Below, one piece after another: positions 13,401-54,400 of a stretch of DNA of 64,000 bases. Position numbers and translations under genes: made by a program. The DNA is taken from NCBI RefSeq assembly GCF_018143015.1, contig NC_054758.1, forward strand, positions 8,478,501-8,542,500, written 5' to 3'. This stretch comes from Lytechinus variegatus (taxonomy: Eukaryota > Echinodermata > Echinoidea > Temnopleuroida > Toxopneustidae). Positions within the stretch are counted from its first letter, which is position 1, and each line of letters opens with the position of its first letter. Under the pieces are notes generated by a model. That model saw only the letters and a program-made list of their open reading frames with translations, did no database searches and had not been told where the DNA came from.

Positions 13401-15517
13401 TAACAAATGTGACATTGAGTAAATGATAAACAATAGATAATATATATAATTCATGTAAATTTTATGAACAAGTACAAATAGAAAGTAGTGGCCAGTAATC
13501 GTATGCAAATTGCTTGAGTACATCGTAGTCGACATATGATTGTACAATACGACTTAATGAATGCCATTGAGAGATTACATTCTTAAAATCGAGTCGTGTT
13601 GAAATTTGTTTGTGAGGTAACATTTGCTACAATACAAGAGGAACCGCAACAAATAAGTAAATTAGTTAGGCTTTTTCTGTTTTTATTACAATAAACATAA
13701 GAAATGATAAAAAAAACAGTTGGTACATAAACTCCCGTTCGAGGGTATAAGTAGTTTTGGTTAATATGATAGCTCCAAAAGGGCCAAATAATGATCCAAG
13801 TTGGCTAGCAAAGAGTTCTTGAGTAAAAGCCCATAGTGCTGGTGATAACAAAATTGGTGTTGAGTTGCAATGGGCGATCATAGTCACTGAGTTAATATAT
13901 CCTTGAACACAGCCGATTTCATCAATTCATGAGTTGATTTATGTTCTTTCGAACTGGTGGATGATCTTGATGAGATCTGAGAATTCCACTCAAAACATTT
14001 GCAGTCTCTTGATGATGCGGAAAAGAGTTCATCAGAAGTTGATGTGGTATTCCACCATTGAATTACTTGCTGTAAGATAACTTATCGAGACATTCTAGAA
14101 TATTCGAGTGTACCTTAAAAAGACAGTTCTTTACTTGCAATCCTTTTTATTAAGAAAGTGATAATTTTTATCTGCAAACTCTCTCAGGAGTTTTTAAAAC
14201 AAAATGGTTAAAATAATGTTCATACAATTATTCTTGTATGAAACATGTTTGGGTGCCAACGTTTAATAATGAATCAAAAGTACCTTAAAAATTTACAGAT
14301 ATCATGAATATGTTTTAATACTCATTCTAGGCTCGTCATGTTGTGAAGCAGTACCAGTTCTTACACTGGCCAAATGAGGCCCAGCAGCAAGCGAATCGAC
14401 CTCGTCAGCTAGTCAATCTGATGACAAAAGTTCAGGAAACTTTAGAACGATCCCGAGAAGGGTTCCCAGTACTTGTTCATTGCATGTGAGTAATGGAGAT
14501 CAACCATGACTGTGCATCCCTGTAATACGATTGTATTCCTAGTTCCCCAAAAGTGTTCACCACTGTATCTTCTTTTCCTGCACTTTACTGTATTGGGAAA
14601 TGACTATACCGTAATATCAATTGAGTGGATCCGATAATTGGGTTGTCTAATCTAGCATGTTTGTGTTGTCTACGCTAATGGATGAAATTACTCTTACGTC
14701 TGGTTTGTTTTTCTAAGGACAGGCAGAAAGATTATTAAAACATTAAATCAATTTCAAAGATTTTTTTGGCAAGCTTTGTAGAACAATTTATGGTACGATT
14801 AATGCTGGTATTGATTTGTTATTTTATTTATTTAATTTTTTCTAAGTATGTAGGCATAGTGATGACTTTGTTAACACATTTACATATCTATAGGAATGGA
14901 GTTGGCCGAACTGGCGTATTTTGTAGCACGCTTGAGTGCATCGCACAAGTAAATGAAGAAGGCGCTGTCGATGTCTTTCACGTGGTGAAGATGCTCAGAA
15001 GTGAAAGGATGCATTTCGTACAAACCGAGGTAACATTTACCTGTACTGTGTGTGTGTGTGTGTGTGCATGACTCGGATGGAGTGAGAGTGTGTATGTGCG
15101 TCTGTTTGAGAACGCCAGTGTTTAGGAAATGTGAAATCGCATAGGAGTACATTTGTAAGTACATTTGTAAGTACATGGTCATGTACCCACCGAGTGCATT
15201 TTTGCATGTGAGTGGGTTTTCGACTATGGCTGGCTTTTTGTATTGCTTGTGAGGGTTAGCGTTATTCATGTGCATGTATTACTTTTCTTCTATTTCTTGT
15301 AATGCAGGAAGAATATTCGCTCATCTACGAGCTGATCAAAGAATATCTTCGAGAAAATGATTACGAGCATCCGTTTCCTGAGGTTTCGCCGAACGATCAC
15401 ACTTACACGTATGCCGATTCCCCTCTGGCCCCAGGTTCCGGTGAGAGTGAGCATGTATACGCACAACTGCAAGAGGGCGCCCCCGATAAAGGAGTGTATA
15501 CCCCACTGAAGACATAA
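1281..15517 (+). CDS. Receptor-type protein tyrosine phosphatase, 13 exons, 5' incomplete
   Basis: Thirteen exons chain in phase: 1281-1403, 1632-1922, 2551-2979, 3231-3303, 4562-4629, 6660-6904, 8607-8706, 9347-9420, 11700-11828, 12800-12928, 14331-14485, 14894-15029, 15308-15517 (stop TAA). They give an EGF-like module, an Ig-like domain, one FN3 domain, a transmembrane helix, a ~110-residue juxtamembrane segment, one PTP domain and a ~40-residue tail. The protein would sit in the plasma membrane and would, if active, remove phosphate from tyrosine. The PTP shows NTVADFWD, HC-x5-R followed by TG, and QT motifs, but has WPN instead of WPD. There is no second PTP domain. No signal peptide is visible, so at least one exon lies upstream of the window. 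The domain order resembles a Tie-receptor ectodomain joined to a phosphatase. Lineage-specific FN3-bearing RPTPs are known from sea urchins; orthology was not tested. Confidence 0.88.
1632..1922 (+). CDS. RPTP exon: Ig-like domain
   Basis: The exon runs in phase 1 at both ends and gives 97 residues. The two Ig cysteines lie in AIISCTFDAD and TIYCFVGN, about 60 residues apart. Two N-glycosylation sequons (NFT, NST) fit an extracellular domain. The start was chosen at the AG at 1630-1631 because it keeps the phase of the preceding exon. An AG at 1649-1650 would break the phase. Confidence 0.78.
1923..2550. other. RPTP intron, nothing recognised
   Basis: AT-rich intron between the Ig-like and FN3 exons. 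I see no repeat or gene in it. Confidence 0.5.
2551..2979 (+). CDS. RPTP exon: membrane-proximal FN3 domain with furin-type sites
   Basis: Strong acceptor (tctctttcag) and a phase 1-1 exon of 143 residues, longer than a usual ~90-residue FN3. The FN3 signatures are YLVIAWDSW near the start, VIGYKVYVSSSDG in the middle, and ITGLDDGQSYRIRISAV near the end. Between the middle and last strands is a ~50-residue insert that is very basic, with RPSRRRRE and RKKRQG. Both fit the furin consensus R-x-K/R-R. Cleavage within the membrane-proximal FN3 is known in several RPTP families and leaves two non-covalently joined subunits. Sequons NET and NIT are present. That the sites are cut here is inferred. 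Confidence 0.85.
3231..3303 (+). CDS. RPTP exon: transmembrane helix
   Basis: The exon encodes a glycine-rich start and about 20 hydrophobic residues (GGIIFIVLLIVIIIIV), then LRLRR as stop-transfer signal. The AG at 3229-3230 keeps the phase-1 join from the FN3 exon. A better-looking acceptor at 3191-3192 (cattaacag) would add TPSGPSATGAIV but shifts phase (enters at phase 2). The donor after AAG at 3303 leaves phase 2, which the next exon accepts. Confidence 0.7.
3999..4325 (-). repeat. Rearranged tRNA-SINE fragments
   Basis: The stretch after the C-run at 3999-4008 (cctcgcctgggttgag, then gctgaaggaaattacgcaatggc) matches the middle of the minus-strand SINE at 60945-61236. Part of it recurs at 4237-4320 after a second C-run. 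This is a duplicated SINE body without its tRNA-like head. Confidence 0.6.
4562..4629 (+). CDS. RPTP exon: juxtamembrane segment 1
   Basis: A pyrimidine tract and AG at 4560-4561, entered in phase 2, give KKPRPKPVSYSYNNDCIGD. The donor gtatac leaves phase 1. The run of basic residues continues the stop-transfer stretch, and the two tyrosines (SYSY) are candidate phosphorylation sites. There is no domain; the exon is assigned by phase and position. Confidence 0.68.
5540..6230. repeat. Degenerate ~105-bp tandem repeat with GCGCGAAGCGCG core
   Basis: Cores at about 5691, 5797, 5898, 6003 and 6117 (gcgcgaagcgcga and decayed forms) are 101-114 bases apart. Between them recur ctgaaaattttgatatt, aaaagggacatt and ggaattcat. 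Related units lie at 38380-38920, 39000-39560, 43860-44600 and 49140-49560, in both orientations. Confidence 0.65.
6660..6904 (+). CDS. RPTP exon: juxtamembrane segment 2 and start of PTP domain
   Basis: The acceptor after a pyrimidine-rich stretch (ttatacgag) is entered in phase 1; the donor gtgagc leaves phase 0. The first ~55 residues are polar, with RYENLG and a Pro-rich stretch. The last ~25 residues, IPVSKFATFVENN then FYKDFL, match the N-terminal helix of receptor PTP domains (usual form vxxFxxyvxxm, then FxxEF). Confidence 0.8.
7447..8136. mobile_element. DNA element with AACCCTAA-type inverted ends
   Basis: The left end aaccctaaaaggactggg and right end cccagtcctgttagggtt are inverted copies with two mismatches. 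The ~690-base interior is AT-rich with a run of C at 8083-8098, and no open frame. A non-autonomous DNA transposon is inferred. It lies in the RPTP intron after exon 6660-6904. Confidence 0.6.
8607..8706 (+). CDS. RPTP exon: PTP N-terminal part, pTyr-loop region
   Basis: Acceptor tatttttag, phase 0 in and phase 1 out. It encodes 33 residues ending SRNTNNHP. This corresponds to the stretch that in active PTPs carries KNRY before the aspartate-rich D-x-SRV motif. Here KNRY reads KSRN, so the tyrosine that stacks on the substrate phosphotyrosine is absent. Confidence 0.75.
9347..9420 (+). CDS. RPTP exon: DRNRV and DFIDASYV motifs
   Basis: Acceptor aacttccag, phase 1 in, donor gtgagt, phase 0 out. 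The product DRNRVILESVGSLDSDFIDA followed by SYVK is the PTP motif usually written D-x-SRVxL...DYINASYI. It fixes the reading frame of the flanking exons. A TTAA-flanked foldback transposon lies about 55 bases downstream of the donor. Confidence 0.9.
9475..10069. mobile_element. TTAA-flanked foldback element, family 1
   Basis: TTAA at 9475-9478 and 10066-10069 flank arms that begin AGGGGAATGAAA and end TTTCATTCCCCT. The arms are long, about 190 bases, and nearly complementary (for example gttatgagcatttgaatatt against its complement near 9940). The interior is noncoding. The TTAA duplication points to piggyBac- or Kolobok-type transposition in trans. Confidence 0.85.
11700..11828 (+). CDS. RPTP exon: PTP core, TQ-P-NTVADFW motif
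   Basis: A 129-base phase 0-0 exon encoding GIRYRFITTQMPMPNTVADF and then WDVVFYNQPTVIIMLND. It matches the PTP core (usual ATQGPxxxTxxDFWxMxW, then ivMLt). The usual AxQGP reads TTQMP. The donor is gtgagg. The following intron opens with diverged relics of the 116-bp satellite. Confidence 0.93.
11885..12150. repeat. Diverged relic of the dyad-rich satellite
   Basis: The words gttcacattgtgtccac, acacagtgt and caccacatagtccactac, then gaacacactgt, match the vocabulary of the 390-1204 array but no longer keep its period. It lies in the RPTP intron after the exon ending at 11828. Confidence 0.5.
12800..12928 (+). CDS. RPTP exon: KCxxYWP-type motif
   Basis: A 129-base phase 0-0 exon with strong acceptor (cccctttag) and donor gtatac. 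TCAQYWLDSG replaces the usual KCxQYWPxxx, and GSFSVTTVS matches the following beta strand. Confidence 0.9.
14331..14485 (+). CDS. RPTP exon: WPD loop (as WPN) and start of catalytic loop
   Basis: Acceptor ctcattctag, phase 0 in. VKQYQFLHWPNEAQQQANRP corresponds to the vxxfhfxxWPDHGVP segment. The general-acid Asp of the WPD loop is Asn, and the HGVP that follows is EAQQ. The exon ends PVLVHC plus two bases of the next codon, so the catalytic cysteine is the last complete codon. The donor gtgagt gives phase 2, the usual intron position before the P-loop. Confidence 0.93.
14894..15029 (+). CDS. RPTP exon: catalytic P-loop and alpha helices
   Basis: Entered in phase 2. With the previous exon it reads HCMNGVGRTGVF, where active enzymes have HCSAGVGRTGVF. 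Cys and Arg of C-x5-R are kept; Ser-Ala is Met-Asn. It continues to SERMHFVQTE, keeping the first Gln of the QTxxQ motif. The second Gln (start of the next exon) is Glu. Confidence 0.95.
15046..15066. repeat. GT microsatellite
   Basis: A short run of GT just after the donor of the P-loop exon, in the last RPTP intron. Confidence 0.8.
15308..15517 (+). CDS. RPTP last exon: PTP C-terminus and Tyr-rich tail
   Basis: Acceptor ttgtaatgcag, phase 0. EEYSLIYELIKEYLREN completes the PTP fold. The remaining ~40 residues form a cytoplasmic tail with tyrosines in HTYTYADSPL, EHVYAQL and GVYTPLKT, possible SH2-docking sites. The stop is at 15515-15517. There is no second PTP domain. Confidence 0.9.
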   Translation, partial: EEYSLIYELIKEYLRENDYEHPFPEVSPNDHTYTYADSPLAPGSGESEHVYAQLQEGAPDKGVYTPLKT

Positions 15518-17414: not shown

Positions 17415-19058
17415 TCAAGATGTCAGCAAATATTTCTTAAGCTTCCTTTTAAATACGTTAAGTGTTTTACAAGATCGAATTTCAATTGAAAGACTGTTCC
17501 AAACTTTTGGGGCACGATGTCGAAAAGATTGAAGTGTATAATTTTTTGCAACTGGGTATAAATGATAATTTTCCCTAGTTCTTGTGTTATAAGTATGTAT
17601 ATTACAATTTTTATTTACCATACATGAAACTGTGCTAGGAAGAATATTATTTTCATTTTTAAATATAAGTATTGCACATTGGTAATCATTTAGATTAAAT
17701 ATATTAAGTACATTCAGTTGAATAAAAAGATCTTTTGTATGTGCCAAATAATGAGAATGAGTGCATATTCTGACTACTTTCTTTTGGAGAAGATACAATG
17801 GTTGTAGTTTTGAATGATAAGTATTAGCCCATACAATATTGCAATAACTTAGGTAAGATAAGATTAATGTATTATATAAAGTCAAAAGAACTCGTTGAGG
17901 GAGAATATGACGGAGTTTGCTGATAACACCAACATTTTTTGCTACCTTATTTGTAATAGTAGAAATATGAATACTCCATGATAATTTTTCATCTATTAAA
18001 ACACCTAAAAACTTTGTATGATGGACACGTTCAATAATTTTATCATTCATTTTGATTTGAAAATTATCCAAAGATTGCTGTGGTGAATTTTTTGAGTTGA
18101 TATGAAAATATACATAATTAGATTTTTCTGTATTCAATAAAAGTTTATTTGAAGAGAACCAAAGTGAGACTTTCTTCAGTTCAGTATTAAGTAAAGTATT
18201 TAATGAAGAAAATGAATCACTGGAGATTAAAATGTTGGTGTCATCAGCAAACAAAATAAACTTGAGTTTGTCTGTGCAATATGGTAAATCATTGATAAAA
18301 ATTAAAAATAACAGTGGGCCCAGAATGGACCCTTGAGGAACGCCACATGAAATTGAACGAGAGTCAGACAGGGTTTCATTATACGATACATATTGGGATC
18401 TATCATACAAATAATGTTTGAACCAAAGTAAAGAGGTACCTCTTACACCATAACATTGCAATTTATACAATAATATTTGAAAATCTATACAGTCGAAAGC
18501 TTTACTAAGATCAAGGAATATACCAATAGTAGTTAATTTTTTATCTAAGGCATCAATAATGTAATCATGTAATTTTATAACGGCAAAGTCAGTGGAGGAA
18601 TTCTTCAAAAATCCAAATTGAGACTGGTTCAAGATATTATTTTTACATAGGAAATCATATAGTCTGGAGTAAACTATTTTTTCAAGAATTTTAGAGAAAA
18701 ATGGCAAAACAGATATTGGACGATAATTGGAGACATTATGTACATCATCTTTTTTATATATGGGCGTAACTCGAGCAATCTTTAAATTAGAAGGAACAAT
18801 GCCTGAAGACAAAGACAAATTAAAAATATAACACAATGGTTTCAATATCAAGTATATAATTTTCTTTATGACAACAGGACTAATACCATCGATTCCACAA
18901 GAGGAAGTTGAATTTAAGTTCTTTACAACATCAAATATTTCGCTATCTGAAACAGGGTGAAGAAATAATGATTTATCACATGGTTCCGGAAGAAACTTTG
19001 TAAAAATATTTAAACCACCAAAGTTTGTAGAATTATTTGAAAGTAAACCAATTTTCAC
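17415..19058 (-). pseudogene. LINE ORF2, reverse transcriptase part
   Basis: An uninterrupted frame of about 547 codons. In order: the Pro/Tyr-rich palm entry SNYRPISVLPFFSKILEK (motif 1-2), DLSKAFDCID (motif A, catalytic Asp), GVPQGSILGPLLFLIFINDL (motif B), FADDTN (motif C, catalytic Asp pair), then KFLGVLIDEKLSW. It ends with the C-terminal domain typical of the CR1/Jockey group (YLQKK-like, HT-x2-LF). No RNase H domain is seen. The frame lacks its own endonuclease, which lies upstream in shifted frames. Confidence 0.93.
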
Positions 19059-19403
19059 AAAAAATCATTAAAACAATTGGCAATATTCTCATCACCATGG
19101 ATTGAATCATTACCATTTATTATATAATCTGGTAACTTCTTTTTCTTTTGACCAAGTAACTCTCTAATAGCATTCCATGTTTTTTTAATATTTCCGTTGC
19201 ATTCATCAAATTTGTTAACATAAAATTTCCTCCTAGCTTCTTTTAGTAATTGATTTAATTTGTTCCTGAGTATAACATGTTTCTTTTTATTATTTACAGA
19301 TCTATTTTTACAATAATCTTTATAAAGTCTATGTTTTTTCTAATCATTTTAAGTAGTGATGAATCAATCCATGGTTTTTTAGCTCTGTTTTTAGGTCTTG
19401 ACT

Positions 19404-36400: not shown

Positions 36401-39400
36401 TATGAGATTGGATGAATCACAAAGAGGCTGCGGCCCCTCGAATCCATTTGTATCGGAGATAGGATTACACGGTTGTTAAAGTTCACAGTATGACCGTAGC
36501 CATGTTTATTATTGTTAATTGACCCAATAACTAAGAAGTTTCAGGAAGTTAGAATGGACATTTTGAACACACTTAATGAGGTGAAAGAAGCATAATACCT
36601 GAATGGACTCAATAGCAGTAAAGCAAATAATGGCCATTTTCATTGGTCTTTCTTTTGCCGTTTTGTGACTTTGGATTCCGGAACCATTTGATTTAAGGGA
36701 CTACAGCCTTGATCTCAAACCACTCTCTTTTAATTATTGCTTAGTAAAGATTATTCAAGCTAGCCCGTGTCAGAATCGTTTTATTTTAACTGAGTTAAAT
36801 TTGTGTAGTGCGCTTGTGAAGTTTGATAACTTTCTTTTGGATCCCAGTTTACTTGTCTACTTTGGTCCTATGATCTTTACCGTTAGAAGGCTCTGAATCA
36901 GTTCGTGATTGGATTATATTTCACAGATATGCACAGCTGATAACAAATCACTTAAATCGTAAAAAGCGATGTGCAGTCCTTGCTTACCTTTGGTAATCTT
37001 AGTTCCATCTGTTTTATATGGGAAAATGTCTGCATATTTTGTTATATAGGCAAATTTGTCATTGATTGTTAACCATGAAAATTCCATTTCCCACGTTTCC
37101 CCGTAATATTACAGATATACTTGGCACATAACGTGTTTAGATCGTTTATCTATCAATGTTATTGGCTTCCTTACGTGCTTCTCAAATTTGCTGCTCCAAA
37201 TATGAAGCATGTTAACTGAAAGGCACATGCTGAAACAGGGTATCAGCAAACAAAACTAAGACCGGGGAAATCGATCTGTCTTTAAGTGATCAGATACGTC
37301 TTGGTCGTCATGGTAATTGTTATTGTCACAACACATGTATATTCTTATTAAGATATACATAACCAGATGACGGTGACTATCATTGGATCAAAGAAATGCT
37401 CGCGTATCCCGTCAATCTCTTCATAAGTCCATTTTGAAACACTTCTGTTTTTTCAATCGCGATCATCACGAAGAGCTATATCGATAGTCCAAACATATAT
37501 ATCATAAACTTCATAGATATATTATTAATTTCATTCAGTTTCATTGATGTTGAGCAATGAATTTTTCTGCAACATTAATGAAGTATGACTTTGTGAATTT
37601 ATATCGGTTATAAATGGGTAATATCTACTGTTGTGTTACTGAATTTATCCACTGTTTATGAACGCATACATTCGTAATTCCGAAGCTTCGTAATTCCGAA
37701 GGTTCGGTTATTCCGAAGGTTCGTATTTCCGAAGGTTCGTATTTCCGAAGGTTCGTAATTCCGAAGGTTCGTCAATCCGAAAACGAAATAAGGTTCGTAA
37801 TTCCGAAGGTTCGTCAATCCGAAAACGAAATAAGGTTCGTAATTCCGAAGGTTCGTCAATCCGAAAACGAAATAAGGTTCGTAATTCCGAAGGTTCGTCA
37901 ATGCGAAAACGAAATAAGGTTCGTAATTCCGAAGGTTCGTTAATCCGAAAACAAAATAAGGTTCGTAATTCCGAAGGTTCGTTAATCCGAAAACGAAATA
38001 AGGTTCGTTAATCCGAAAATTAAATAAGGTTCGTATTTCCGAAAATGAAAAATTATTCATTTTGGTAACAAAAACGGTGTTGTCATTACAAGATTACACG
38101 ATATTATGCAATGACGATCGATGATGCATGCATGTGTTGTGGCCAAAAGCACGTATTTCATTAGAATAGGCGCCCTGATCAAGCATAGGCTAATTTCGAT
38201 TTTATCTGAGCAATTGCTGCCTAAGCAAATGGTTTAAAGATGCAGGGGATCAAGTGTGTTGGTCGCGTGCGAGTAACCCCTAGATAATAGGATTTGTATT
38301 GGAGATGATGTCATTTTTAATAACAGCTTCTGCTGGTAATAAAAATAATACTATAATAATGATCCTTGTGAGATGTTGAAAGCGCGAATCGCAAGCTCAA
38401 ACTTGTAGACATTTCATGTAACAAGATGTGAACTTAAACATTCTGAGCAGTTTTTTTAATCGTGAGAAAGATGTGTATCTTTCTAAATAATTAACTCGAG
38501 GGCGAGCTGTAATTTGTTTATATACTGACCTGGGGCCCGTTGCATAAAACCTTTTACCTGAGAAAACTCATGTTGTTTTTACCGGAGTTTTTGCCCTGTG
38601 CTAAAGTCAATGGCGGAAATCAGACTAACCTTAGTTTTCAGTTTTTACCAGAGTTTTCTCAGGTAAAAAGTTTTATGCAACAGGCTTCTAAGTAATCTTT
38701 AAGGACTGCATTTAGTGACTCATGAATAGAATATATGTCTCACGAACTAAATAATGAGAGCGCGAACCGCAAGCTTAAAATTTGTGATATTCCACCTGAA
38801 AACTGGACATTTTTTTTGTAACCAGGAATAGAATGAGTTCCTCAATAAATAATACTTGATGCGAGGAAGAAACGTGAGCCAAAATTTTCCGATTTTCCAA
38901 CCTGAAAACTGGACATTCTAAGCATTCTTGTAAAAAAAAATGATAGCTGGGAGAACAGTTTTCAGAACTGAAGTGGCTTCCCTGGGTAAATAATATCTAT
39001 ATCATTATTATTCTAGGCCTACATGAAATTTCCAAAAGTTTGAGCAGGTGATTCGCTCGCAACATCTCACAAGGATGCCCTTTTAACAGTAATTGACCAA
39101 AAAGGCGAATTTTACATCTTCAGATTTGATTTCTTTCCCCCAGCCGCTTGCTCGCTACGCTCGCAGAAATGAAACGTAAATATATAATTTATCAATCAGT
39201 GATCACTTAAATTTTTTTGCTCAATTCAATTACTACAAAACACACAACCTCTTTACACAGATGATAATCTCAAGGTGAAAATATACGTTTGCACCAAATT
39301 GCCCCTATTGGCCCCTTTTTGGCTTTGCCCCCCCCCCCCCCAGGAAAATATATTCCGCCGCCACTGGTTGAAACACGCATCGTCTTCATGGCTAACTGCA

Positions 39401-42400
39401 AAAAGTTCTTTGAATGTCCCCTTTATATCAGGTCAGAGCTTATATATTTCAATTTCTGTTTGCGATCTTGCTCGCAGTTATTATCTAAATTTAGTTACAT
39501 AGGCATCTCGTTTTGAAGATCACAAACATATTGCCCATCATATTAAAAAAATATATAGCTCGCGCTCGCATTATTTAAAAAGGGTTTATCATGCTATTAC
39601 ATATTTACTTTATTTGATAAGTATATAGCTATATATTAGATAGCCAAGACAGATAGCCAAGCGCGATTGGTCAATTGCGCGTCACGTGATATGATCAAAA
39701 TCTGTGTATTTTCCCAGCCGGTCCACCTTCGATGAATATATTGACCAACTGGTCCGTGAATATATTTTTCTACGTGTATGGCGCCCTCTTGTGGGTTAGA
39801 TGTTACCAACTAAACGGAAATAAAATATGTGGGACTAAAGTATCTGAACTGGACTCTAACTTAGGGCTAGGCCTAAAACAAACTTGATTTGATTAGAAAA
39901 GGGCCATTCACTGCATTAGAGTAGTAGTAGACTAAAGTTACATCTAGATCTATACCAGTTCCATCAATCACTCTGACTATCGTAAACAACAGGCTGCACG
40001 CATCGTTAGGCCATTTTTATCTACATCATTAAAGGCTATCTAATATAACAGATATTGACTGATGGGATGTGTAAAAAAACATTCTTTGGACCGCCTAAAG
40101 GATTAATATTTTCCCTCGTGATCATATTTTCCCTCAGCGCTGCACGCTTCGGGAAAATATAACCCCTCGAGAAAATATAAATCCGGCGGTCCAAAGAATG
40201 TTTATATTACACACTCCATTAGTCAATATCTGTATATTATTGACTGTTAGGACTACCCTTTCAAAGAAACAAACAAATATCAACTTTAAGCTGCCGATCG
40301 AGGAAAATGTGGCTGAAAAAAATATTGCCCCCCCCCCCTACTTGACGAAAGTTGGATCCGCCGGGAGGGAGGCAGGGGGGACTTGCACCCCAAAAATGAA
40401 ATAAAAAAACAGGGAAATGAATATTTTCCAAAATGGGAAAGTTCCTTTTTCAAAAATAAATATGCCGTTTTTCGTGTTTTTTTCGAAATAAAATATTCTT
40501 TTTACAGTATACAAGTTAAGTTTTCAGGCTGGAATATTGCAAATTTTCAGCTTGCGCTTCGCACTCTCATTCGATTGGTGAAATATGCATCCTAAAGAGG
40601 TCACGAAATGCTTTCTTTAACAGGTTCCTTTTCTGGTCAGTATGTTTAAGCTGTGTTTTGCGCTCGTGTTAATTTTTTAGTTAGATGCACATCTTTTTAA
40701 TGACAGCAGAAATCTGCTCGGATTTTTAAAAACTTATTTTCATTTTTTATTGAAATACCCTCAAGTTTTAGCTTGTGATTCACGCTCGCAACACCTCGCA
40801 ATTATGCCATTTTAAGAATAATTGACCCCCCCAAAAAAGTTTTACAACTTCACCTTTGAATTTGTTTTACCAAGCCGCTCGGTCATTACACTCTCCCGAA
40901 AAATAAAGCCTAAACATACGTTTTGCCATAATAAGAAATCTCTTCAAAAAAGGTTTTTCTCTAATTAATCACTATCAAACACACAATGACTTCAAGCAGA
41001 TGATAATCTTAAGAGGAAATATCACCAAAGTGTCCATTTTGACGTATGAGTTTCATTTTTTGGCTTTACCCCCCAAACGAAAATTCGTTCGGCCGCCCTT
41101 GCCTTCCCATCCTCAAAACAATTGAACGGCAACAGTGTCCCCCGCCCCCTCCCCCTTGCCTCTGCCTCTGCTTTCACGGTTTTCATTTTTCGGATTAACG
41201 AACCTTATTTTGTTTTCGGATTAACGAACCTTTTTTCGTTTTCGGATAAACGAACCTTCGGAAAAACGAACCTTATTTCGTTTTCGGATTAACGAACCTT
41301 CGGAACAACGAACCTTATTTCGTTTTCGGATTAACGAACCTTCGGAACAACGAACCTTATTTCGTTTTCGGATTAACGAACCTTCGGAACAACGAACCTT
41401 ATTTCGTTTTCGGATTAACGAACCTTATTTCGTTTTCGGATTAACGAACCTTATTTCGTTTTCGGATTATCGAACCTTCGGAACAACGAACCTTATTTCC
41501 TTTTCGGATTATCGAACCTTCGGAATAACGAACCGTCGGAATAACGCCACAAATGTTCGGATTAACGAACCCTTTTTCGTTTTCGGATTAACGAACATCG
41601 AGGTATAGGCAATTTACGTGTTTCGGAATTACGAACCTTCGGAATTACGAAGTGTAACTGTTTATGAATATGCTATTACTATGACATTTTGTACGATTAT
41701 TTGTGTGATGGATAATTATCGTTGTGAAAAGTGTTTTGCTGATATTGATATTGTAATATTTTGCAATGTACCATCACTTCGATTTTGAACTGAATGATTT
41801 AACAAATGTTTTTACAAAACAAAACAAAATCATAGGGTCAGGCGGGTTACATTAATAAACATTTGTTTGTTTATTGCTGTTTTTATTCTTTACCTAAGCA
41901 TACCTAAGCAATAGGGAGCTTAAGCACAACGACTTATGAACGATCAAATAACAGAGACAAATGTTGTCAAATTCCCGTCATAACAAAGAAGAACCACGAA
42001 GTAATCGTCGAAAATTTGTGAATCAAACGGCAGTTTTTGTCATTTGACAGGCATTTTTGATACATTTACTGTGCTCTTAAATCCTCTGTAGAGAATAATA
42101 CCTATTATTTGTATTCAACTAACGATTTTGATGTTATATCTGTTCATCTTCAAAGTCGTTCTTGAACACTTTTGCACTGAAAAGACCGGGTACGAATGGA
42201 TATAACTACTGGATAGGCCTGAGTGACATAGATGATGACAGGGTATACACGTGGGTAAACAACACGCCATCCGGGTAAGTGCTTAAAAAAATAATAATCC
42301 GTCACCATTACATATTCCAAAGGGAGGGGTGCAAAAACCGTATAGACCTATCGCAAATATGTTATTATTTTTTCCCTAAAAACTCACTTTGATAAATATT

Positions 42401-45400
42401 TCCGCGTATACTGGAACTTTCGGATTGCTCTTATCAAGTGAAGGCTGTTAGAAATGTTCAATGTATTAAAGAGTGCACCTATTTTATGTACTCACTGCGC
42501 TATTGTTTTCGGGAATGGAAAAATTCAATAAAGCGCGGAAATGGCTGAACTTAAAAGTATATTAGTTTGAATCCTCCAATATTTGAATTTATGAGACTGT
42601 AGTGAACAACTAGTCTATAGTTTTCCCAAAATAGAAAGTCTCAGTTATAGTAAAATAACAGGACTTAGAAGAGATAAAGAGAAAACAATAATGTTTATTT
42701 TTCATGTTTTATTTAGCACAATCGATAAAAACAGTGGAGGGTAGTCCAGTTCAGTAAAAAAAAGTTTTAACAAGAGTTATATACATGATATAACGATATT
42801 TCCTTACGTCTTGGTATATAAATTGTTTTTGGTTTTAGTCTCTTAAAATATCTCTATTACTTCCTTCTGGTATGAGGTTTGTATTTTCTGTCAAATATTT
42901 GAAATGTTTATTTCTCATTGTGCGATTTCCTTTTATTGAGCTTTCGGAGATTGGTTAAAATCTGTCCAAGGGTGTTCTCAGTGGCAGTAGTGGAGGATAT
43001 AATAGGCACTCCTAGCCCGTCCTTGGGGTTTCGTACCCCCTACGGGTTACACTTCGTAATTCCGAAGGTTCATTATTCCGAAGGTTCGTAATTTCGAAAC
43101 ATGTAAATTGCCTTTACCTCGATGCCTCCGAAAACGAAAAAGGGTTCGTTAATCCGAACATCTGTGGCGTCATTCCGAAAACGAAATAAGGTTCGTTGTT
43201 CCGAAGGTTCGATAATCCGAAAACTATATAAGGTTCGTTGTTCCGAAGGTTCGTTAGTCCGAAAACGAAATAAGGTTCGTTAATCCGAAAATTAAATAAG
43301 GTTCGTATTTTTGAAAGTTAGATTAATTCACTTTGGTAACAAGAACGGTGTTGTCCTTGCAAGATAACAGGATATTATGCACTGATAAAATAACGAACGA
43401 TGATACATGTGTGCGTTGTGGCCAAAGCATGTATTGATTTAAGAATGGGCACCCGGATCAAGCATACGGTTAATTTCAATTTTATCTGTGCAATTGCTGC
43501 CCAAGCAAAAGGTTTAAAGATGCAGGAGATTAAGTGTGTTTTACGGGAGCGAGTAACCTCAAGATAATAGGATTTGTATTGAAGGGAATGTCAATTTTAA
43601 TAAGAGCTTCTGCTGGTAATAAAATAATACTTGTTATGATCATAATAATTCCCAGAGCTTCTTCTGAAAATTCATCTAAAATGTATACTTTAAGAATAGT
43701 AGTTTATTTTGAAAAAGGGAATTTTCCATTTTGTAAAAATAACATTTCCCTGTTGATTATTTTGGGGTATAAGTTCTCCCTGCCCCCCCCCCCCGCAGAT
43801 CCAACTTTCGCCAATAGGGGCAAAATTTTTCACCCACAATTAATTAATTAATAATTAATAATATCATAAGACTTTTTTTAATAATTCAAGCACGAAGCGC
43901 GAGCTAATTTTTTTTATGATGGGCAATATGTTATCTTCAATACAAGATGGCTATGTACATGTATAAACTAGATAAAAGCTGCGAGCAAGAAGCACGAGCA
44001 GAAATTTTAATTATAAGCTCTGACCTGGGGTGCATTTCATGAAGGGACTTGTCGGACGTTTTATCCGACAAGTCTTGTTTTATCCGACAGTTACTATAGT
44101 AACATTGCTTCTAAACCAATGAGAATCCAGGAAAGTTGTCAGATCTGACAACTTGTCGGACGAAAATATTGATGAAACACCCCCCTGATCTAAAAGGGAT
44201 ATAATAAGGGATTTTTGAAGTAAGCCTTGAAGACGATACATGTTTCAATCAAGGGCGGCGGAACGTGTTTTCCTTGCATGGGGGGGGGGGAGAAGCCAAC
44301 AAATGTGCACTTATATGCAAAAACGGGCATTTTGTGCAGACCATGAGATTATCATTTGTGTAAAGTTGTGTGTTTTGTAGTAATTTAGTTGAGCAAAGTT
44401 TTTTTAATTGATTTTTGATTGACAAGATATATATATATTTAGGTTTTATTTTCGCGAGCAAGAGGTTTGGAAAAAATCTGAAGTTATAGAACTCGCTTTT
44501 TTGGTCAATAATGGACCTAATTACTCTTCAAAGGGCATCATTGTGATATATCGCGAGCGAGTCACGAGCTCAAACTTTGGAAATTTCATGTAGGCCTAAT
44601 AAGACATGATAGTAACAATAATAATGACAATAATAATAGTAATGATGGTATTATTTACCAAGGGAAGCCACTTCAGTTCTGGAACTGTTATCATTACCAC
44701 GGCTATTGCTGGGATGCCTAGGCGCCCAAATGAAGGCATGTAATTAATTTCTTCATACCGGGTACCCATTCACATAGGCGGCGGAAGCGGGGGGACGGGG
44801 GGACGTGTCCCCCCCTAAATTTTAGTTGGGGGGGACGGTCCCCCCTAAATTTTGTTTTGATGACCTTTTTTTTTTTTTTTTGCTTGTCCAATTTTTTCCT
44901 GCGTCCCCCCCCCTAAATTCACGTGGCCCGCCCTTAAACGTGTGTTGTCCCCCCCCCCTGAAATTTAGGGTGATGACCTTTTTTTTTTTTTTTTTTTTTT
45001 GCTTGTTAAAGAATTTGTGGTTAACAAATCACTTAAATCGTAAAAAGCGATGTGCAGTCCTTGCTTACCTTTGGTAATCTTGAGTCATCTTTGCACTCCT
45101 CAACAAGACCTACGAGGTAAGATCGCTTCGACCTCTTGACAAGAGAGTTGACAAGGTCGCGCTGAACTCGGAAATGATCCCTATCAATCAGTAGTCCACT
45201 TTTCCGCCACTTCGTCTCCAGTCTTCGTCGAATGCGCTTCTGTAAAGTGATGTCAGAGCTGTACCATGGACAGTCCACATGGCTCTTTACCTTTCTAGTC
45301 CTTGGTGGAGCGTGAATGTTGAGAAGCTTCTCAAGCTCACTGTTGTAGCGAAGAACAGCGGTATCAACGTTTTCTGTAGAAGGATAATGCTGCTATCAGC

Positions 45401-48400
45401 CACACTCTGGGCAAAAGTTGCCCTATCTATGTCTCGGATGTTGCGGGAGATAAATGTTGATCGAGTCCGACTGGGCTTGCTGAAACCAATCCTCCAAACA
45501 ACTGCAGAGTGATCTGAGATGCCCGGAACAACATTCGGTTTAGAACATAGAGATCGGTCATTTGAATCCCGCACTATTACAACATCAAGTAGGTGGCCTT
45601 TATCGTGGGTAGGAGAACTGACAAGCTGAGACATGGTGTGACTACTGAGAAGTGTGTTAAACTTCTGCGTGTGAGATGAAGAGGCATTGTGGAGATGTAT
45701 TTTCAAATCGCCGGTGATAATCAATGGAGGAGGTCTGTACATGCTGCCGTCGAGAGAATTTGAAAATTCTTCCAAAAATCTGGAAAAGCTCTGACCGCTC
45801 GGTGGCCTGTAGATTACCGCGACGTCGATGCAACCGGAGTCACTGGAGATGGTGCCACACATACATTCAAAACTGTCGTACTTACACGTAGGTTTAATGG
45901 TAACTTGTAGATTATCCTTGTAGAGGAAGGCCACCGCGCCCGGAGGCTCTAGGACAATGTTCGAATCTATAAGAACTTGGGCGAAGATCAGCTATTACTG
46001 CTTCATCATCGGGTGAGAGCCATGTCTCACATACACAGACAAAATCTAGGTTATGATCTAACACAAAATCCTGGAAAGTTGTAGACTTATTGCGTAGTGA
46101 GCGAGAATTGAGAGCACCAAACTTTAAATGCTCCTTATAACGGTCACTTCCACCCCTACTCCCACGATGTGTCCTCCGCCTTCGACATGATCTACCGATT
46201 CCGAGAGACACCAAGCGATCCCAAACACCAGTGTTCTCATCACGCCATTTTAAAAAGAAACGTCTGTCAATGACATGAACATTCATGGCATGAAGAGTAT
46301 GATTACTATAATTGTGAAATTGTAAAGAAGAATCACTGGAATCATTACTATTGAGGTGGGTCGATACTTGTAAAGAGGGTCCGGGATTGCGGTTGACGTC
46401 TCCCGAGATCAGCAGAAGAATACGAAAACTTGAAAGGGCATTAGCATATCGCAGAACTGGCCTACCTATATATTTACACTTTCGTTCAAACTTGGTGTCA
46501 GATCTTGGGACTGAAATTCCCAGTCTGGTAATAGATTTGGTTCTGTTTGAAACGAAAGTAGTTACCACTTGCAATAATCACACAATTATTCAATATCTAT
46601 ATGTAACATAAATTTAATTCAGAGCGACCAGCTCTATAAATGTACATATAGTTAAAGAAATTGAACAATCAGAATTAAATCATGAATCACATGCATATCA
46701 ACATAGTCATAACATCAAACTGTATTTAGCAGTTAGCATCAGCATGAATTAACCTATACTGGATATGTTGCAATATGTATCTAATGAGAGTGATATATTT
46801 ATATTAAATCAAGGCCTAATAATTTGGCATCCAAACGTGACAATATTTTTGGTTATTAATTCCACCAATTAAGTTTCATCAGAAGAGGGTTCATACTTGG
46901 ATGAATACCTACACTGGACCGTAGTATATCTAATCTGGTTATAATTTATATAGTTCAGAATAAGGACCCCTTCGACATCGTCAATGACTATCGTTGGTCC
47001 GATGAACATAGTCGTCTAAGAGCGAGCTGCGGTGGCTTCGACGACGCGAAGTAAAGCGAGCGAACTCTCGACGAAAAGCCAGTCCAGATTCGCGGACGAA
47101 ATGATGAGGGCTGAGAGCCACAGTACGAAGAAGATTGCTACGATGAATCACAAGTCACGAACTCTGAGTTCGAGGATGAAGTACGAGCCCAGCTCGTCCC
47201 TAAAGAGAGTAAATAAATAACCATCTCCTAATAGACAAGGTCCAGTAATAACACTATAAATGTTCACAAGTCAGTTACGATATACTAGCTTGAATTCACT
47301 GAACTACTTACGGAAAATAATGTAAAAACAAACTACGGTATCTTTTATCCCTAAATAGCAAAAGGAAATCTCTCTTCTCCTAGAAGTATACTTCTCAGTT
47401 CAATGAATATTTACATCAACTATATCATATACAACATCAATAAACTGATCCTGGCTATTACTCTTGTTCAGTTCACAAGCCATATATCACATAACTATCA
47501 GTTTAAAATATATGGGAATCGTCATTGTCATTGAGCGTATAAACCAACAATTCTTCCATAATAAAATGTCTACTTTAATAACATTTAATTACTACATCTT
47601 TATATCATTACTTCATGTTTAGTTGGTTTCTCGTTGGTTTGATTTCACAAAGTTTTCATTTATGAAATATGATTTACTATACAATACAACAAAGCATTTA
47701 ATATTCTTTGCACTTTAGTGTTCAATACTCTAACATTAATCATAAGCAAAATAATTACTGAATTTCTGTTTTCTTTGAAAACACTAAGTTTTGCTTTTAA
47801 TTACAATAATTAATTATACCAATAAAATAGTGAACTTACAGTTCTTTGGAACAGTCGTGCCTGGTGAGATGAGGGCAGATGTGGTGGCTTTACCTGGCCT
47901 GTGCTGCCTGGATCCAGCCTGCCAACGATGGGATTAAGACTCCGCTGTGCCTGCACTACACAGCCTGCAACATACACCCAAAGTAATGGCCTACGAGAAC
48001 CACACCCTCACACTCCGAGTTAAGACCAAATGTGGAAGGGTCTTCCTCTCCCGAGAATCAAACGATTTCTGATTTGCTTTTACTCAAACACCACTCCATC
48101 TTGACTCTCACAAAGACAAAGTCATTAACATTCTCAATATTCCTCTGCTTTACTCTTCCACGCTGAACATATCCAATTAAAACTACTTAACTATCCAAGC
48201 TTTAATTTCACCTATTCAAAACTCCCATCTCAAACATTCTCAACAGTCTTTTCCTCTCATACATAAAAACAAACATCTATAGAATTTTAGAGCCCCATTG
48301 AACTTAACTAAATATATCAAGTTAAATGACCCAATGCTCATGACCTAAGCTTGTCAAGAAGTCAAAGTAAAATTCTAATCCTTACACCCCAGCGGGTTTG

Positions 48401-51400
48401 ATCACTTACTTAAAGATACAGTTGATTGACTCTGGGACTATGACAAGAGTCAACCACCCAAATTCCTTTTATTATATACAAGCTGAATGGTTACTAGGGG
48501 TTAACACTAAATAGACTTACAGTCGCATTGTGACACTTGGGTTGTGCCAGTGGCAATGCATTGCAACAATTAACATTCAATTCAGAACAAGAGAGAGTGA
48601 TACAATAGCGACATGAGTATACAACAGACACAAAGGCTATGAAAGTGGAGACCTTCATTGTGAAGATTCGCACAGGCGTGAAGCCAGATCACTGACAGTG
48701 AAAGAGTAAGCTATCTATGTAATGTGTGTACAAACAAGCAACATGGCCACTGGACATAGGGCAATGGGCAAAGCCAAAAATCCTAACGACTAAAAACCAA
48801 ACGGACTAAGAGTAAGAATCTCACCAAAACGATCTAGTAGCTTCCTGAAGACATACAAAAACCACATATAGTAATTAAGAATGAGTAAATGATATAGGAA
48901 CAAGAATAAAATAGATAACAAGCAGAGCTCTGTGGGAGGTCAACCACCAGGCGCGCGCACCCCACAAAAAAAATTTAAGCTCACGCTGCGTGGGCACATT
49001 GTTTGATTTACCAAGTTAATATTGTCTACGTGTATTCCATAATGTTCCATAAACAAATGTATTCAGAATGCCCAGATTCTAGGTCTAATCTAAAACAACA
49101 TGCGCAATAGCCTGCAGGCATGTTCTTTTTTTCAAAATTTACTTAAATTATTCAGGTTCACTTCAGAATATCAATAATTGTCTGCTCACGCTTCACGATC
49201 GGCTTATTAATGATACCCAATTAACTAATAGTTAATTGGGTATCATTAATAAGCCGATCGTGAAGCGTGAGATTTTAGACCTAAAACTTATATAGTATAT
49301 AAGTTTTAGGTTCTCGCCCTTCGCGCTCGCATCAATTGTTTAGTGACATACCTATCCCATTTATTAATACAGAAGTGCTTAGAATTCCCATTTTTAGGTC
49401 GGAATGTCAAAAAAATTTGCTCGCACTCGAGCTAGTTACATACGAATCTTGTTCAGGATCACATATAACATTGCCCAGAATACTAAATTTTAAAGACAAA
49501 ATACATGAAAGTAAAAAGAAATCGCTCGCGTTTCGCGCTCGCACTTTTTATAAGGCTTTTCAGATTATTTCATGTTTATGTTGTTTTATAAAAATAAAAT
49601 TAAGAAGTGACTGATCGGGGAAAATATAGGTGAGGGTAATTTCGGGCCCCGTCACCTATTGGCAAAAGTCGTATCCGCCCCTGTGACACATACACACACA
49701 CACTCGAAAAAATGGCCGGCGCCCCCCCCCCCTTAAAAAGCAAGAACCCCCTAGTGCCCCCCCCCCATAAAAAAATCCTAGCTACGCCACTGCCTGCTTC
49801 ATCGTCAGAAGACTAATCCACTGGGCCACAACGTCCAGCATAAAAAAAACATTCCGAGCATTTTTGTAATCATTAAAAACAGATTAACATTGTAATCACT
49901 AGGCGTAACGATCAATAAAACATTTATATTCTTTATCACCATTTTTATCATGATCTTTGTTTGGGATTTTTATGATCATATTTCTATTTTTATTACCAAC
50001 AGAAGCTCTAATGACATCCCCTTCAATACAAATCCTATTATCTGGAGGTTACTCGCACCCGGTGACAGCCAACACACTTAACCCCTGCATCTTTAAACCA
50101 TTTGCATTGGCAGCATTTGCTCAGAGAAAAATCGAAATTAAGTGTATGCTTGATCCGGGCGCCTATTCTTAAATCAATACATGCTTTGGCCACAACACAC
50201 ACGTGTATCATCCTTTGTTATTTTATCACTGCATAATATCCTGTTATCTTGCAAGGACAACATCGTTCTTGTTACCAACATGAATTAATTTAATTTTCGG
50301 AAATACGAACCTTATTTAATTTTCGGATTAACGAACCTTATTTCGTTTTCGGACTAACGAACCTTCGGTATTACGAACCTTATTTCGTTTTCGGACTAAC
50401 GAACCTTCGGAATTACGAACCTCATTTCGTGTTCGGATTAACGAACCTTCAAAATTAGGAACCTTCGGAATTACGAACCTCATTTCGTTTTCAGACTAAC
50501 GAACCTTCGGATTAACGAACCTTATTTCGTTTTCGGACTAACGAACCTTCGGAATTACGAACCTCATTTCGTGTTCGGATGAACGAACCTTCAAAATTAG
50601 GAACCTTCGGAATTACGAACCTCATTTCGTTTTCAGACTAACGAACCTTCGGAATTACGAACCTCATTTCGTTTTCGGATTAACGAACCTTCGGAATTAC
50701 GAACCTCATTTCTTGTTCGGATTAACGAAGTTTCAGAAATACGAATGTATGCGCCCCTATACGTATATACAACGTGTACACATCAGATTCTCACATTCCC
50801 AAATAACACAATTAATTAAACCATAGAATTATGATGAAAAATCTTTTCGAAGACTCTTTAGTGTCGGTAAATCTCCACCCCCCCCCCCCCGCAAAAATAT
50901 CGTTGTATTTTGTATTGATTTTTAGGATTTTTAGCTACTGAATTCCGGGAAAATAGGTATGAAATTACGAAAGAAGAAGCTGGAGGTCAAATTTATAATA
51001 TATAACGGCTGAAAACCACAAAATTGTCTTTTTAATGGCTTAAAAGAAAACAATGACCACTCCGCTTTGACGCATTGGGATGTAGGACAATAATGGAGTG
51101 GGTTATTTTTTGTTTTTTTTTCTTTGCTTGTCAATCTTTTATAAGCACCCTCATTAAAAAAAGTCGTTTTCAGGGCCTGGTATTTTGTATTTTTAATGCA
51201 GTGACGTACAGACAAGTGAGCGATTAATACACATTATGGTAAATTTACCGAATTGTGTGGCAACATAGTTATGGCACATTTTGGTACTTTGCAAAAATGT
51301 GCAATTCACCAAAATGTTCAACAACGAACGGTCAAATAAATCAGACTATGGTCGTGCCCATAGTTTGGAGTGGGGGCCTAATCAACCGTTTTTCTACCGT

Positions 51401-54400
51401 AAACAACAAAATTAACACTCCGCGCTCCCCTGCCTCTCCTTTGTAGAATTCATAGTGACGCGGACCTCCTTAGACGTAAATAGGCCCTGTATCTGTTAAT
51501 GACTGTACAGGGGCCGTGAAACCGGGGAGCTGGTTGGGGGGCTTCAGCCCCCCACTTTTTTCCAAAAAACCGTGTACAAAAACGTAAAAATGACCATATA
51601 ATTGTGATTTTTAGAATGGTCAGCCCCCCCCCCCCACTTTGAAAACCGTTCCGCGGCCCCTGCTGTACTCTAACTCACTTGTTCTTTCAACTATACCTTT
51701 TGGTTGACTTTTATATTAAGGTATTCCAACCTAAGATCCCAGGGCGAGCAAGGGGGATGTGTTCGACTCAGAACGGTTTACTCAGGACAATGGGAGGGCA
51801 GCGACTGTGCACTAGAACGTGTTCATATTTGCCAGCGTGATTCAGGTAATCTAACGTGAAAATTAATACTCCACACCTTAGGCACGGTGTTATGTTGAGG
51901 GGTTTTCCTTTAATTTTTTTGTTTGACTTCAAAATATTTTGTGAGCCTAGGGAATGCCCCCCCCCCCCCATCTCCGGCGCACTGCCCGTGATCGAGAATA
52001 TCAACTATATCATTTCCCTTTTAATTATACGATTATTACTAGCCTTGAGGGTAACACCAAATATATTGCCCGCAATAAAAGCATATTAGCCCTAGTCTTT
52101 AGACGATTAAGACGAGGGCAATATGGTTCCTTTAACGGCAATGGCCCGTATTATGATAGCAGGTTTAATTTAACCCTAGTCTAAAGTTAACCCTCGTTTA
52201 ACTAAACCTCCTCTAAACCTCACCTCTGGTCTAAGTGTAGTTTTATTATTTTGGTATTCTGATAGCCAGGTTGTAGTAAATATGGGTTAAACCCGGGTTT
52301 AAAAATTCTCTTTTGGAAATAATATTCCTCTTTTAACCAAGACTAGCACCTTTTTGGTAAATTACTTCTGCAAGGATGACTGCAACAAAGTTAAAAAACT
52401 GTCACTAAAGTTCTTCTTCTTCTTCATATATACATGTAAGTACATACCACCTGTAGTGTATTGTCGTACTGTATTGTGGATTTGAATACTGAGTGCTGAG
52501 AATCCACCGGTGAAGTTGTGGTAAAAAAACAAACATATATATAATATTTACATACAAATACAGACTAACATAGTCTGACATGTTGCACCTCACTCTTTAA
52601 TATATTTGCTGAGGTGCTGTCTACGACGTCCTGAGGTAGGGAATTCCATAACCTGGCAGTGGCAGGAAAGAAGGAATTTTTGTAACATTCTGTATTTGCA
52701 AATGGAATCATGGGGGTTTTTTTTAGAATGACCTCGATGTTTGAATGATGAGTGTTTCAGTTGTTGCTGGACGTCTACAAGATTATTAACGATGCGATAC
52801 ATTAGTAGAGTCTTTGCTTGGGGCCCTACGCTCTTGAATGGTTTGCCACTGTAGTTGTCGAAGCATAGCAGAAATGCTGCTTGTAGTTCGGAAGTCGTGA
52901 CAAACATAGCGAGCGTACCTGTGTTGAATCGTTTCAAGATTTCTGATTTTTGTCTGTGTGAATGGGTTCCAGATCTCAGATGCATACTCCATTATTGGCC
53001 TCAGGAGCATCTTGTAACAAATGACCTTAGTGTTTCTTGGACAGCTTGTTAGATTTCTTTGCAGAAAACATCTGGTATTATTTGCTTTCTTGGTAATTGA
53101 GTCTACATGGGCGTTCCAACTGAGATTATCGGTAAAGGTTATGCCGAGGTATTTGGCATTACCTTTTTCTTCCAGAGCTTGGCCGTGGATGAAGTACCTG
53201 TTGTGTGGAAAGATTTTCTTCCTTGTAATGTGTAAAACCTGGCACTTTCCGGGATGGAATGTCATACCCCAGTCCCTCTCCCATTGCTGCAGGGCATCAA
53301 GATCACGCTGCAGATCTTCGGCGTCTTCTCGTAAACTGATCGGATGGTATAGGGCACAGTCGTCAGCAAAAAGACGAACTGAAGAGCCATTGGTCACATA
53401 CTCTGCCAACTCTGGCAAGTCATTTATGTACAGAAGAAAGAGCAAAGGACCGATGACACTCCCCTGCGGTACTCCTGAGAGGACAGGTGCTGGTTCTGAT
53501 GTTGCTCCATCAATAACAACTCGTTGACTACGTTGAGACAAAAAGTCAGCAAGCCAAAGATGTACCTCATTCCTTATACCATAGTATCCAATCTTGTACA
53601 GCAGTCTTTGATGTGGGACTTTGTCAAACGCCTTGGAAAAATCTAACAAGATTGCATCAGTTTGCCCTTTCCTGTCGATTGTTGAAGCTAGATCATCAAC
53701 TACTTTAACTGTGTTACACATGATCTCCTTTTCCGGAAGCCATGTTGGGCATCAGATGATGCAAGTCCAGGTGTTTCATGATGCTGCTACACACAATATG
53801 TTCTAATGTTAGCATACTATAGAGGTGAGTGATACAGGCCTGTAGTTCTCTGGCCGTGATCTATCACCCTTCTTAAAGACAGGGACGATGTTTCCTTTCT
53901 TCCAATCTTCAGGAATGGTACCTTGATTAAGGGAAGCCTGATAGAAGTGAACAAAGATTGGTGTTAACTCAAGTGCAAGTTCTTTCAAGAGCCGCGCTGG
54001 AATCATGTCAGGTCCAGAAGCTTTGTGTGGGTTCAAATCGTGTAGGAGCTTGTAAACCCCTGCTGGTGACACATTAATGGATTCCATACTCTTGTAAGGA
54101 CTGGGTCCTTTCTGTGGTATGCTGGTGATGTCTTCGTTTCCATTGAAAACTGAAGAAAAATGTTTGAGAAGACTAGCTTTAGCAGAACTGTCAGACACCA
54201 TTCCTTTGTTTGGAGAAAATAAAGTGGATACACCATTCTTGTCGCACTTCTTGCTGTTGATGAAACTCCAAAATCTTTTTGGATTTGAGGAGCATTCTGG
54301 GCTCACAATGTTGGTAATGTAGTCACTGTATGCTACTTTACAAGCCTGCTTGCACTCTTTTTGGAGTTTCCTGTATCGCAAAAAATCATGTTTTTTTTCT

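Follow-up and report, generated by a model that had tools for sequence, protein, structure and literature searches.

Two minisatellite arrays face each other in inverted orientation in a 64,000-nucleotide stretch of the Lytechinus variegatus genome (870 Mb in 33 contigs), and this locus raises the question of whether the arrays are independent repeats or the two arms of a single mobile element. The stretch (contig C19, positions 8478501-8542500) is referred to here as the window. A sequence-only reading had proposed a TU-like foldback transposon. Our data indicate with high confidence that the arrays belong to a non-autonomous, cut-and-paste, foldback-shaped DNA transposon, referred to as element 1, which is a member of a high-copy family with the anatomy described below. 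The superfamily, the exact length of the target duplication, and the source of the transposase are considered separately.

Comparison of the window with itself showed that the arms of element 1 are 84% alike across 390 bp in inverted orientation, and both were also detected by the tandem-repeat and repeat searches of the window. The window does contain the inverted minisatellite arms and the ends proposed by the sequence-only reading, with TGTTTATGAA flanking the element on each side. The interior of element 1 (38060-41181) was searched in six frames with stops written as X, and no Pfam match was obtained up to an E-value (E) of 1. Element 1 is interpreted as a non-autonomous foldback element because it lacks a Pfam match and possesses the family ends, the target-site duplications (TSDs), and the arms.

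The two ends of element 1, designated A and B, were used as exact query sequences against the whole genome. End A (CGCATACATTCGTA) had 2,483 exact matches (1,256 and 1,227), while its reversed control had none (0 and 0). End B (GGTTACACTTCGTA) had 2,844 exact matches (1,412 and 1,432), while its reversed control had 6 (5 and 1). The pairing of the ends was analyzed on contig C1 below 23.25 Mb, using the 82 of 100 listed A places and the 96 of 100 listed B places that fall there; the lists contain exact ends only. Among these listed ends, 62 adjacent pairs faced inward at less than 25 kb, and A was joined to B in 58 of them (32 AB and 26 BA, compared with 3 BB and 1 AA). Interchangeable ends, at 82 A and 96 B, would be expected to give mixed pairs in approximately half of the cases. 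For pairs of up to 5,342 bp, A was found with B in 53 of 55, and in one of the two exceptions (3,539 bp) a B end is located within the A..B element of L020. The remaining ends in this region (54 of 178) were unpaired. The A-with-B pairs measured 3.18-3.82 kb in 31 of 58 cases and 309-625 bp in 10 of 58, with the short ones defined by their coordinates alone. Elements of the common type were 86-94% alike with their arms included, as judged from the best matches listed.

TSDs were compared in 29 A..B elements, two from the window and 27 from contig C1, which supplied every element sampled beyond the window. The C1 elements were obtained by following 43 consecutive end-A matches among the 100 listed of the 2,483. 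In a first batch, with up to 2 changes allowed in end B, 15 of 23 A matches led to an A..B element; in a second batch, with up to 3 changes allowed in B within a slice approximately 2.1-4.3 kb from end A, 12 of 20 did so. The remaining 16 of the 43 matches fell outside the comparison, and one of these (1232269) is a 340-bp pair by its coordinates. One end A of L023 was excluded from the TSD count as a second A sits between it and end B. With GGTTAC taken as the family end, an exact TSD was observed in 19 of the 29 elements, 8 bp long in 8, 9 bp long in 11, and 10 bp long in none. These exact TSDs have a GC content of 31%. In the control, 1 of 812 mismatched flank pairs matched exactly, and that match was between the two copies of a tandem duplication in L014. 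This duplication spans 4.06 kb and includes the whole element with its flank, and an exact TSD is present at its second copy only.

Both arms are arrays of a 14-bp quasi-palindromic core, TTCGNNNNTCCGAA, repeated at steps of 16 or 26 bp, and the linkers between the units are mostly GG at the 16-bp step and AACGAAATAAGG at the 26-bp step. The 42-bp unit reported from the sequence alone is composed of one 16-bp and one 26-bp step on the 14-bp core. The step lengths of 16, 26, and 42 bp correspond to approximately 1.5, 2.5, and 4 helical turns. Units were searched with TTCG and CGAA as anchors, each allowed one change, and in both arms the TTCG and TCCGAA positions were highly conserved, partly by construction of the search, while the inner bases were variable. 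Arms and whole elements were compared in 17 elements. Two spacers are present in arm B of most of these, with L025 lacking the second; neither the first 150 bases of arm A nor its most frequent linkers show them. In all 17 elements, arm A had a better median score with the A arms of other elements than with the B arm of the same element. Homogenization of the arms within an element was therefore unsupported, as arm A in 17 of 17 and arm B in 16 of 17 elements were closer to like arms (the exception being L025). The long inverted tandem-repeat arms, which differ in length among copies, and the target duplications place the family in the foldback structural class. A search of viral contigs for relatives, with a pattern of two units at a 16-bp step, gave three contigs, each with two or three units and no longer array, and these were taken as unrelated.

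The window also contains a second member of the family, element 2, which was not part of the sequence-only finding; it is inverted relative to element 1 and lies 1.4 kb to its right (Table 1). Its flanks, CCCCTACG and CCCCTATACG, mismatch at 2 of 8 bases unless a 2-bp TA slip is permitted, and with this slip they look like copies of one TSD. Element 2 is the more diverged of the two; when it was compared with the 16 other elements, the six best matches spanned 22-24% of its length at 75-79% identity. The Pfam matches in its probable long interspersed nuclear element (LINE) fragment, for which three minus-strand frames were searched, had E values of 4.6e-05 and 0.011, and the segment at 46578-50127 had no Pfam match in six frames.

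Table 1. Coordinates of elements 1 and 2 and their parts in the window.
Feature	Position	Strand	Remarks
Left TSD of element 1	37654..37662	+	9 bp, GTTTATGAA
Element 1	37663..41659	+	Non-autonomous foldback transposon; end A left, end B right
Arm A of element 1	37663..38043	+	Terminal motif CGCATACA, then tandem TTCGNNNNTCCGAA-type units (18 matching the exact pattern)
Arm B of element 1	41189..41659	-	20 units by exact pattern; two B-type spacers
Right TSD of element 1	41660..41668	+	9 bp, GTTTATGAA
Left flank of element 2	43037..43044	+	CCCCTACG, probable decayed TSD
Element 2	43045..50753	-	End B left, end A right; more diverged
Arm B of element 2	43045..43306	+	
Probable LINE fragment within element 2	45033..46577	-	Endonuclease-like matches in 2 of 3 frames, below Pfam cut-off
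Arm A of element 2	50296..50753	-	
Right flank of element 2	50754..50763	+	CCCCTATACG, probable TSD copy with TA slip

Each arm of element 1 is detectable as a tandem array in its own right, as would be the case if two unrelated minisatellites had come to lie face to face by chance. The probability of this is negligible, since it is refuted by the thousands of copies with fixed ends, the pairing of A with B, and the TSDs, and the same evidence lends strong support to the proposal that one transposon has both arrays as its arms. The concern that the flanking word TGTTTATGAA might be a common repeat was not borne out: it occurs 3 times in the window against a shuffle mean of 0.60, and 2 of 100 shuffles reached 3. 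Other results weigh against the explanation as a whole. An exact TSD is missing in 10 of the 29 elements. Six of the elements are near misses, 1 or 2 bases off at 8 or 9 bp, with one mismatched base in L013 (9 bp) and L052 (8 bp), and two mismatched bases at 8 bp in L021 (where the sequence is poly-T), L026, L074, and element 2. No TSD at all was found among the 29 for L018, L027, L039, and the first copy in L014. In addition, no transposase was tied to ends A and B among the 8 MULE (Mutator-like element) loci checked of at least 31, and the TSD length is not exclusive to Mutator-like elements, as Merlin elements likewise make 8-9-bp TSDs.

The length of the duplication at element 1 depends on where its right end is placed. 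It had been described as a perfect 10-bp duplication, with the element ending in GTTAC at 41658, and TGTTTATGAA is in fact perfect on both flanks; the word shared by the flanks, ACTGTTTATGAA, is even longer, at 12 bp. The L023 element also has an exact 10-bp match with this end. However, taking GTTAC as the end gave an exact match of 6-13 bp in only these 2 of the 29 elements, compared with the 19 obtained with GGTTAC, and the 2,844 exact matches of GGTTACACTTCGTA also count against it, so that a 10-bp duplication is very improbable. Of the 29 elements, 26 have GTGTAACC as their right end and one has GTGCAACC; element 1 has the variant GTGTAACT, and L039/L040 the variant GTGTAAGA. The base preceding the right TSD is C in 27 of 29 and T in element 1, and the degenerate L039/L040 end has A there. 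Because this base belongs to the element throughout the family, the end of element 1 was corrected to 41659, and 9 bp, GTTTATGAA, is the preferred reading of its duplication. The T that replaces the terminal C causes the flank match to run further, and chance would then account for the additional A and C that complete the 12-bp match. The substitution affects a C that precedes a G and would fit a CpG transition.

Mutator-like transposons make TSDs of approximately 8-11 bp, often 9 bp, and the TSDs of the present family fall within this range. The superfamily is probably Mutator-like (MULE/Phantom), an assignment made because of the TSD length and the likeness to Tm1, a Mutator/Foldback family of nematodes. 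The same type of element could instead be mobilized by a transposase of the Merlin (IS1016-like), hAT, or P type, given that Merlin makes 8-9-bp TSDs, that hAT and P make 8-bp TSDs, that 8 of the 19 exact TSDs are 8 bp, and that no transposase is linked to the ends. This appears less likely, as the 9-bp TSDs in 11 of the 19 exact cases speak against the fixed 8-bp makers hAT and P, and the combination of asymmetric ends and tandem-repeat arms is matched in Tm1, whose transposase is a MULE (PMC3169594).

The autonomous copy that the sequence-only reading had suggested looking for was not found. Apart from the LINE of element 2, the frames listed across the 17 elements were array or low-complexity frames or short ones without a clear identity; nothing transposase-like was recognized by eye, and the Pfam searches covered element 1 and the greater part of element 2. 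The MULE loci L029-L036 were rejected as autonomous copies, having in the sequence read neither an A or B end with up to 2 changes nor an arm array. Six MULE neighborhoods (two of more than 9.9 kb and four with approximately 1.5 kb on each side) were without end A, end B, or an arm array; one to three loose unit matches, which do not form arrays, were present in 5 of the 6. Two further MULE matches on C1 had no enclosing A/B pair in the exact-end lists. The proteins of L033 and L034 contain FLYWCH and MULE domains, and in L032 a FLYWCH frame adjoins a MULE frame; this is the Phantom layout described in the Tm1 report (PMC3169594). As a separate observation, L035 (C3:36707600-36717500) and L036 (C5:45202500-45212400) share a unit of more than 9.9 kb that is 99.5% identical and carries a 494-amino-acid MULE/ZSWIM-type frame, and the DNA retrieved stops short of the ends of this unit. 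A third copy, on C15, matches across the 3.3 kb that was read.

The transposase acting on the family would be supplied from elsewhere and would most likely be of MULE/Phantom type; it would recognize one A end and one B end, with the units of the arrays probably serving as repeated binding sites. This enzyme would make cuts staggered by 8-9 bp and insert the element, and host repair would then create the TSD. A tentative extension of this model is that the ends differ functionally and that each move requires precisely one A and one B. The asymmetric terminal motifs may mark left and right, the arrays, with their 16- and 26-bp steps, may offer a multimeric transposase phased sites on which to load, and the A and B arms may be separate lineages despite their common unit.

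The TU elements of Strongylocentrotus purpuratus are foldback elements with tandem-repeat outer arms, 15-bp repeats, and 8-bp TSDs. The present family has the foldback shape and the tandem-repeat outer arms in common with them, while the 14-bp core, the 16/26-bp steps, and the 8/9-bp TSDs differ; this is a comparison by description only, and the label TU-like is thus fair for shape alone. The closest described match is Tm1 of root-knot nematodes (PMC3169594), in which TSDs are 8-10 bp and mostly 9 bp (45 of 53 elements). Both families have terminal inverted repeats of approximately 14-bp tandem units in variable number, termini that are asymmetric in their short motifs, and many short members resembling miniature inverted-repeat transposable elements, and most copies in both are non-coding. 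The motifs themselves are different (A1, CGGTTAA, and A2, CCTACCC, in Tm1; CGCATACA and GGTTACAC here). Tm1 also has a coding copy with FLYWCH and MULE transposase domains, whereas none was found in the urchin family, and the ends here number in the thousands compared with the 61 Tm1 elements analyzed. The alternation of 16- and 26-bp steps was not met in the available part of the Tm1 description.

Two other systems show partial likeness. Rehavkus elements of arthropods and annelids (PMC6446971) are Mutator-related (PMC6446971, PMC10218199) and have a 9-bp TSD and a minisatellite near an end, as does the present family. Rehavkus-1_TC of Tribolium has tandem repeats with a 164-bp unit, far longer than the unit here, in its inverted termini (PMC6446971, PMC10218199), and Rehavkus encodes a transposase with a PHD-finger (PMC6446971), whereas none was seen here. 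Tetris of Drosophila virilis (PMC4079207) is also a foldback element with tandem repeats in its arms and no coding copy found; its TSDs are 8-9 bp in the three structurally complete copies and 9-10 bp in rearranged ones, and its arm repeat is approximately 220 bp in contrast to the 14-bp core here. Literature searches returned no title describing the family; Repbase lay outside these searches, which are no proof that the family is undescribed, and it may well be catalogued there already.

The window also contains an array of approximately 116-bp units at 388-1203 that is rich in the palindromic words CACATAGTT and AACTATGTG, possibly another satellite derived from inverted repeats. Two further minus-strand frames match reverse transcriptase (RVT_1), at 17415-19061 (E = 3.1e-34) and 52786-53748 (E = 3.2e-25), and are LINE-like by eye; neighboring frames had no Pfam match. 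Exon-like frames at 2532-3089 and 14739-15071 match fibronectin III (just below the cut-off) and tyrosine phosphatase domains and are perhaps parts of one receptor phosphatase gene.

In summary, the paired minisatellites in the window are explained by a foldback element, and two sequence tags, ends A and B, allow thousands of ends of its family to be located. The A-with-B end rule of this family is unusually clean, and such strict pairing constitutes a large data set on how foldback arms work.

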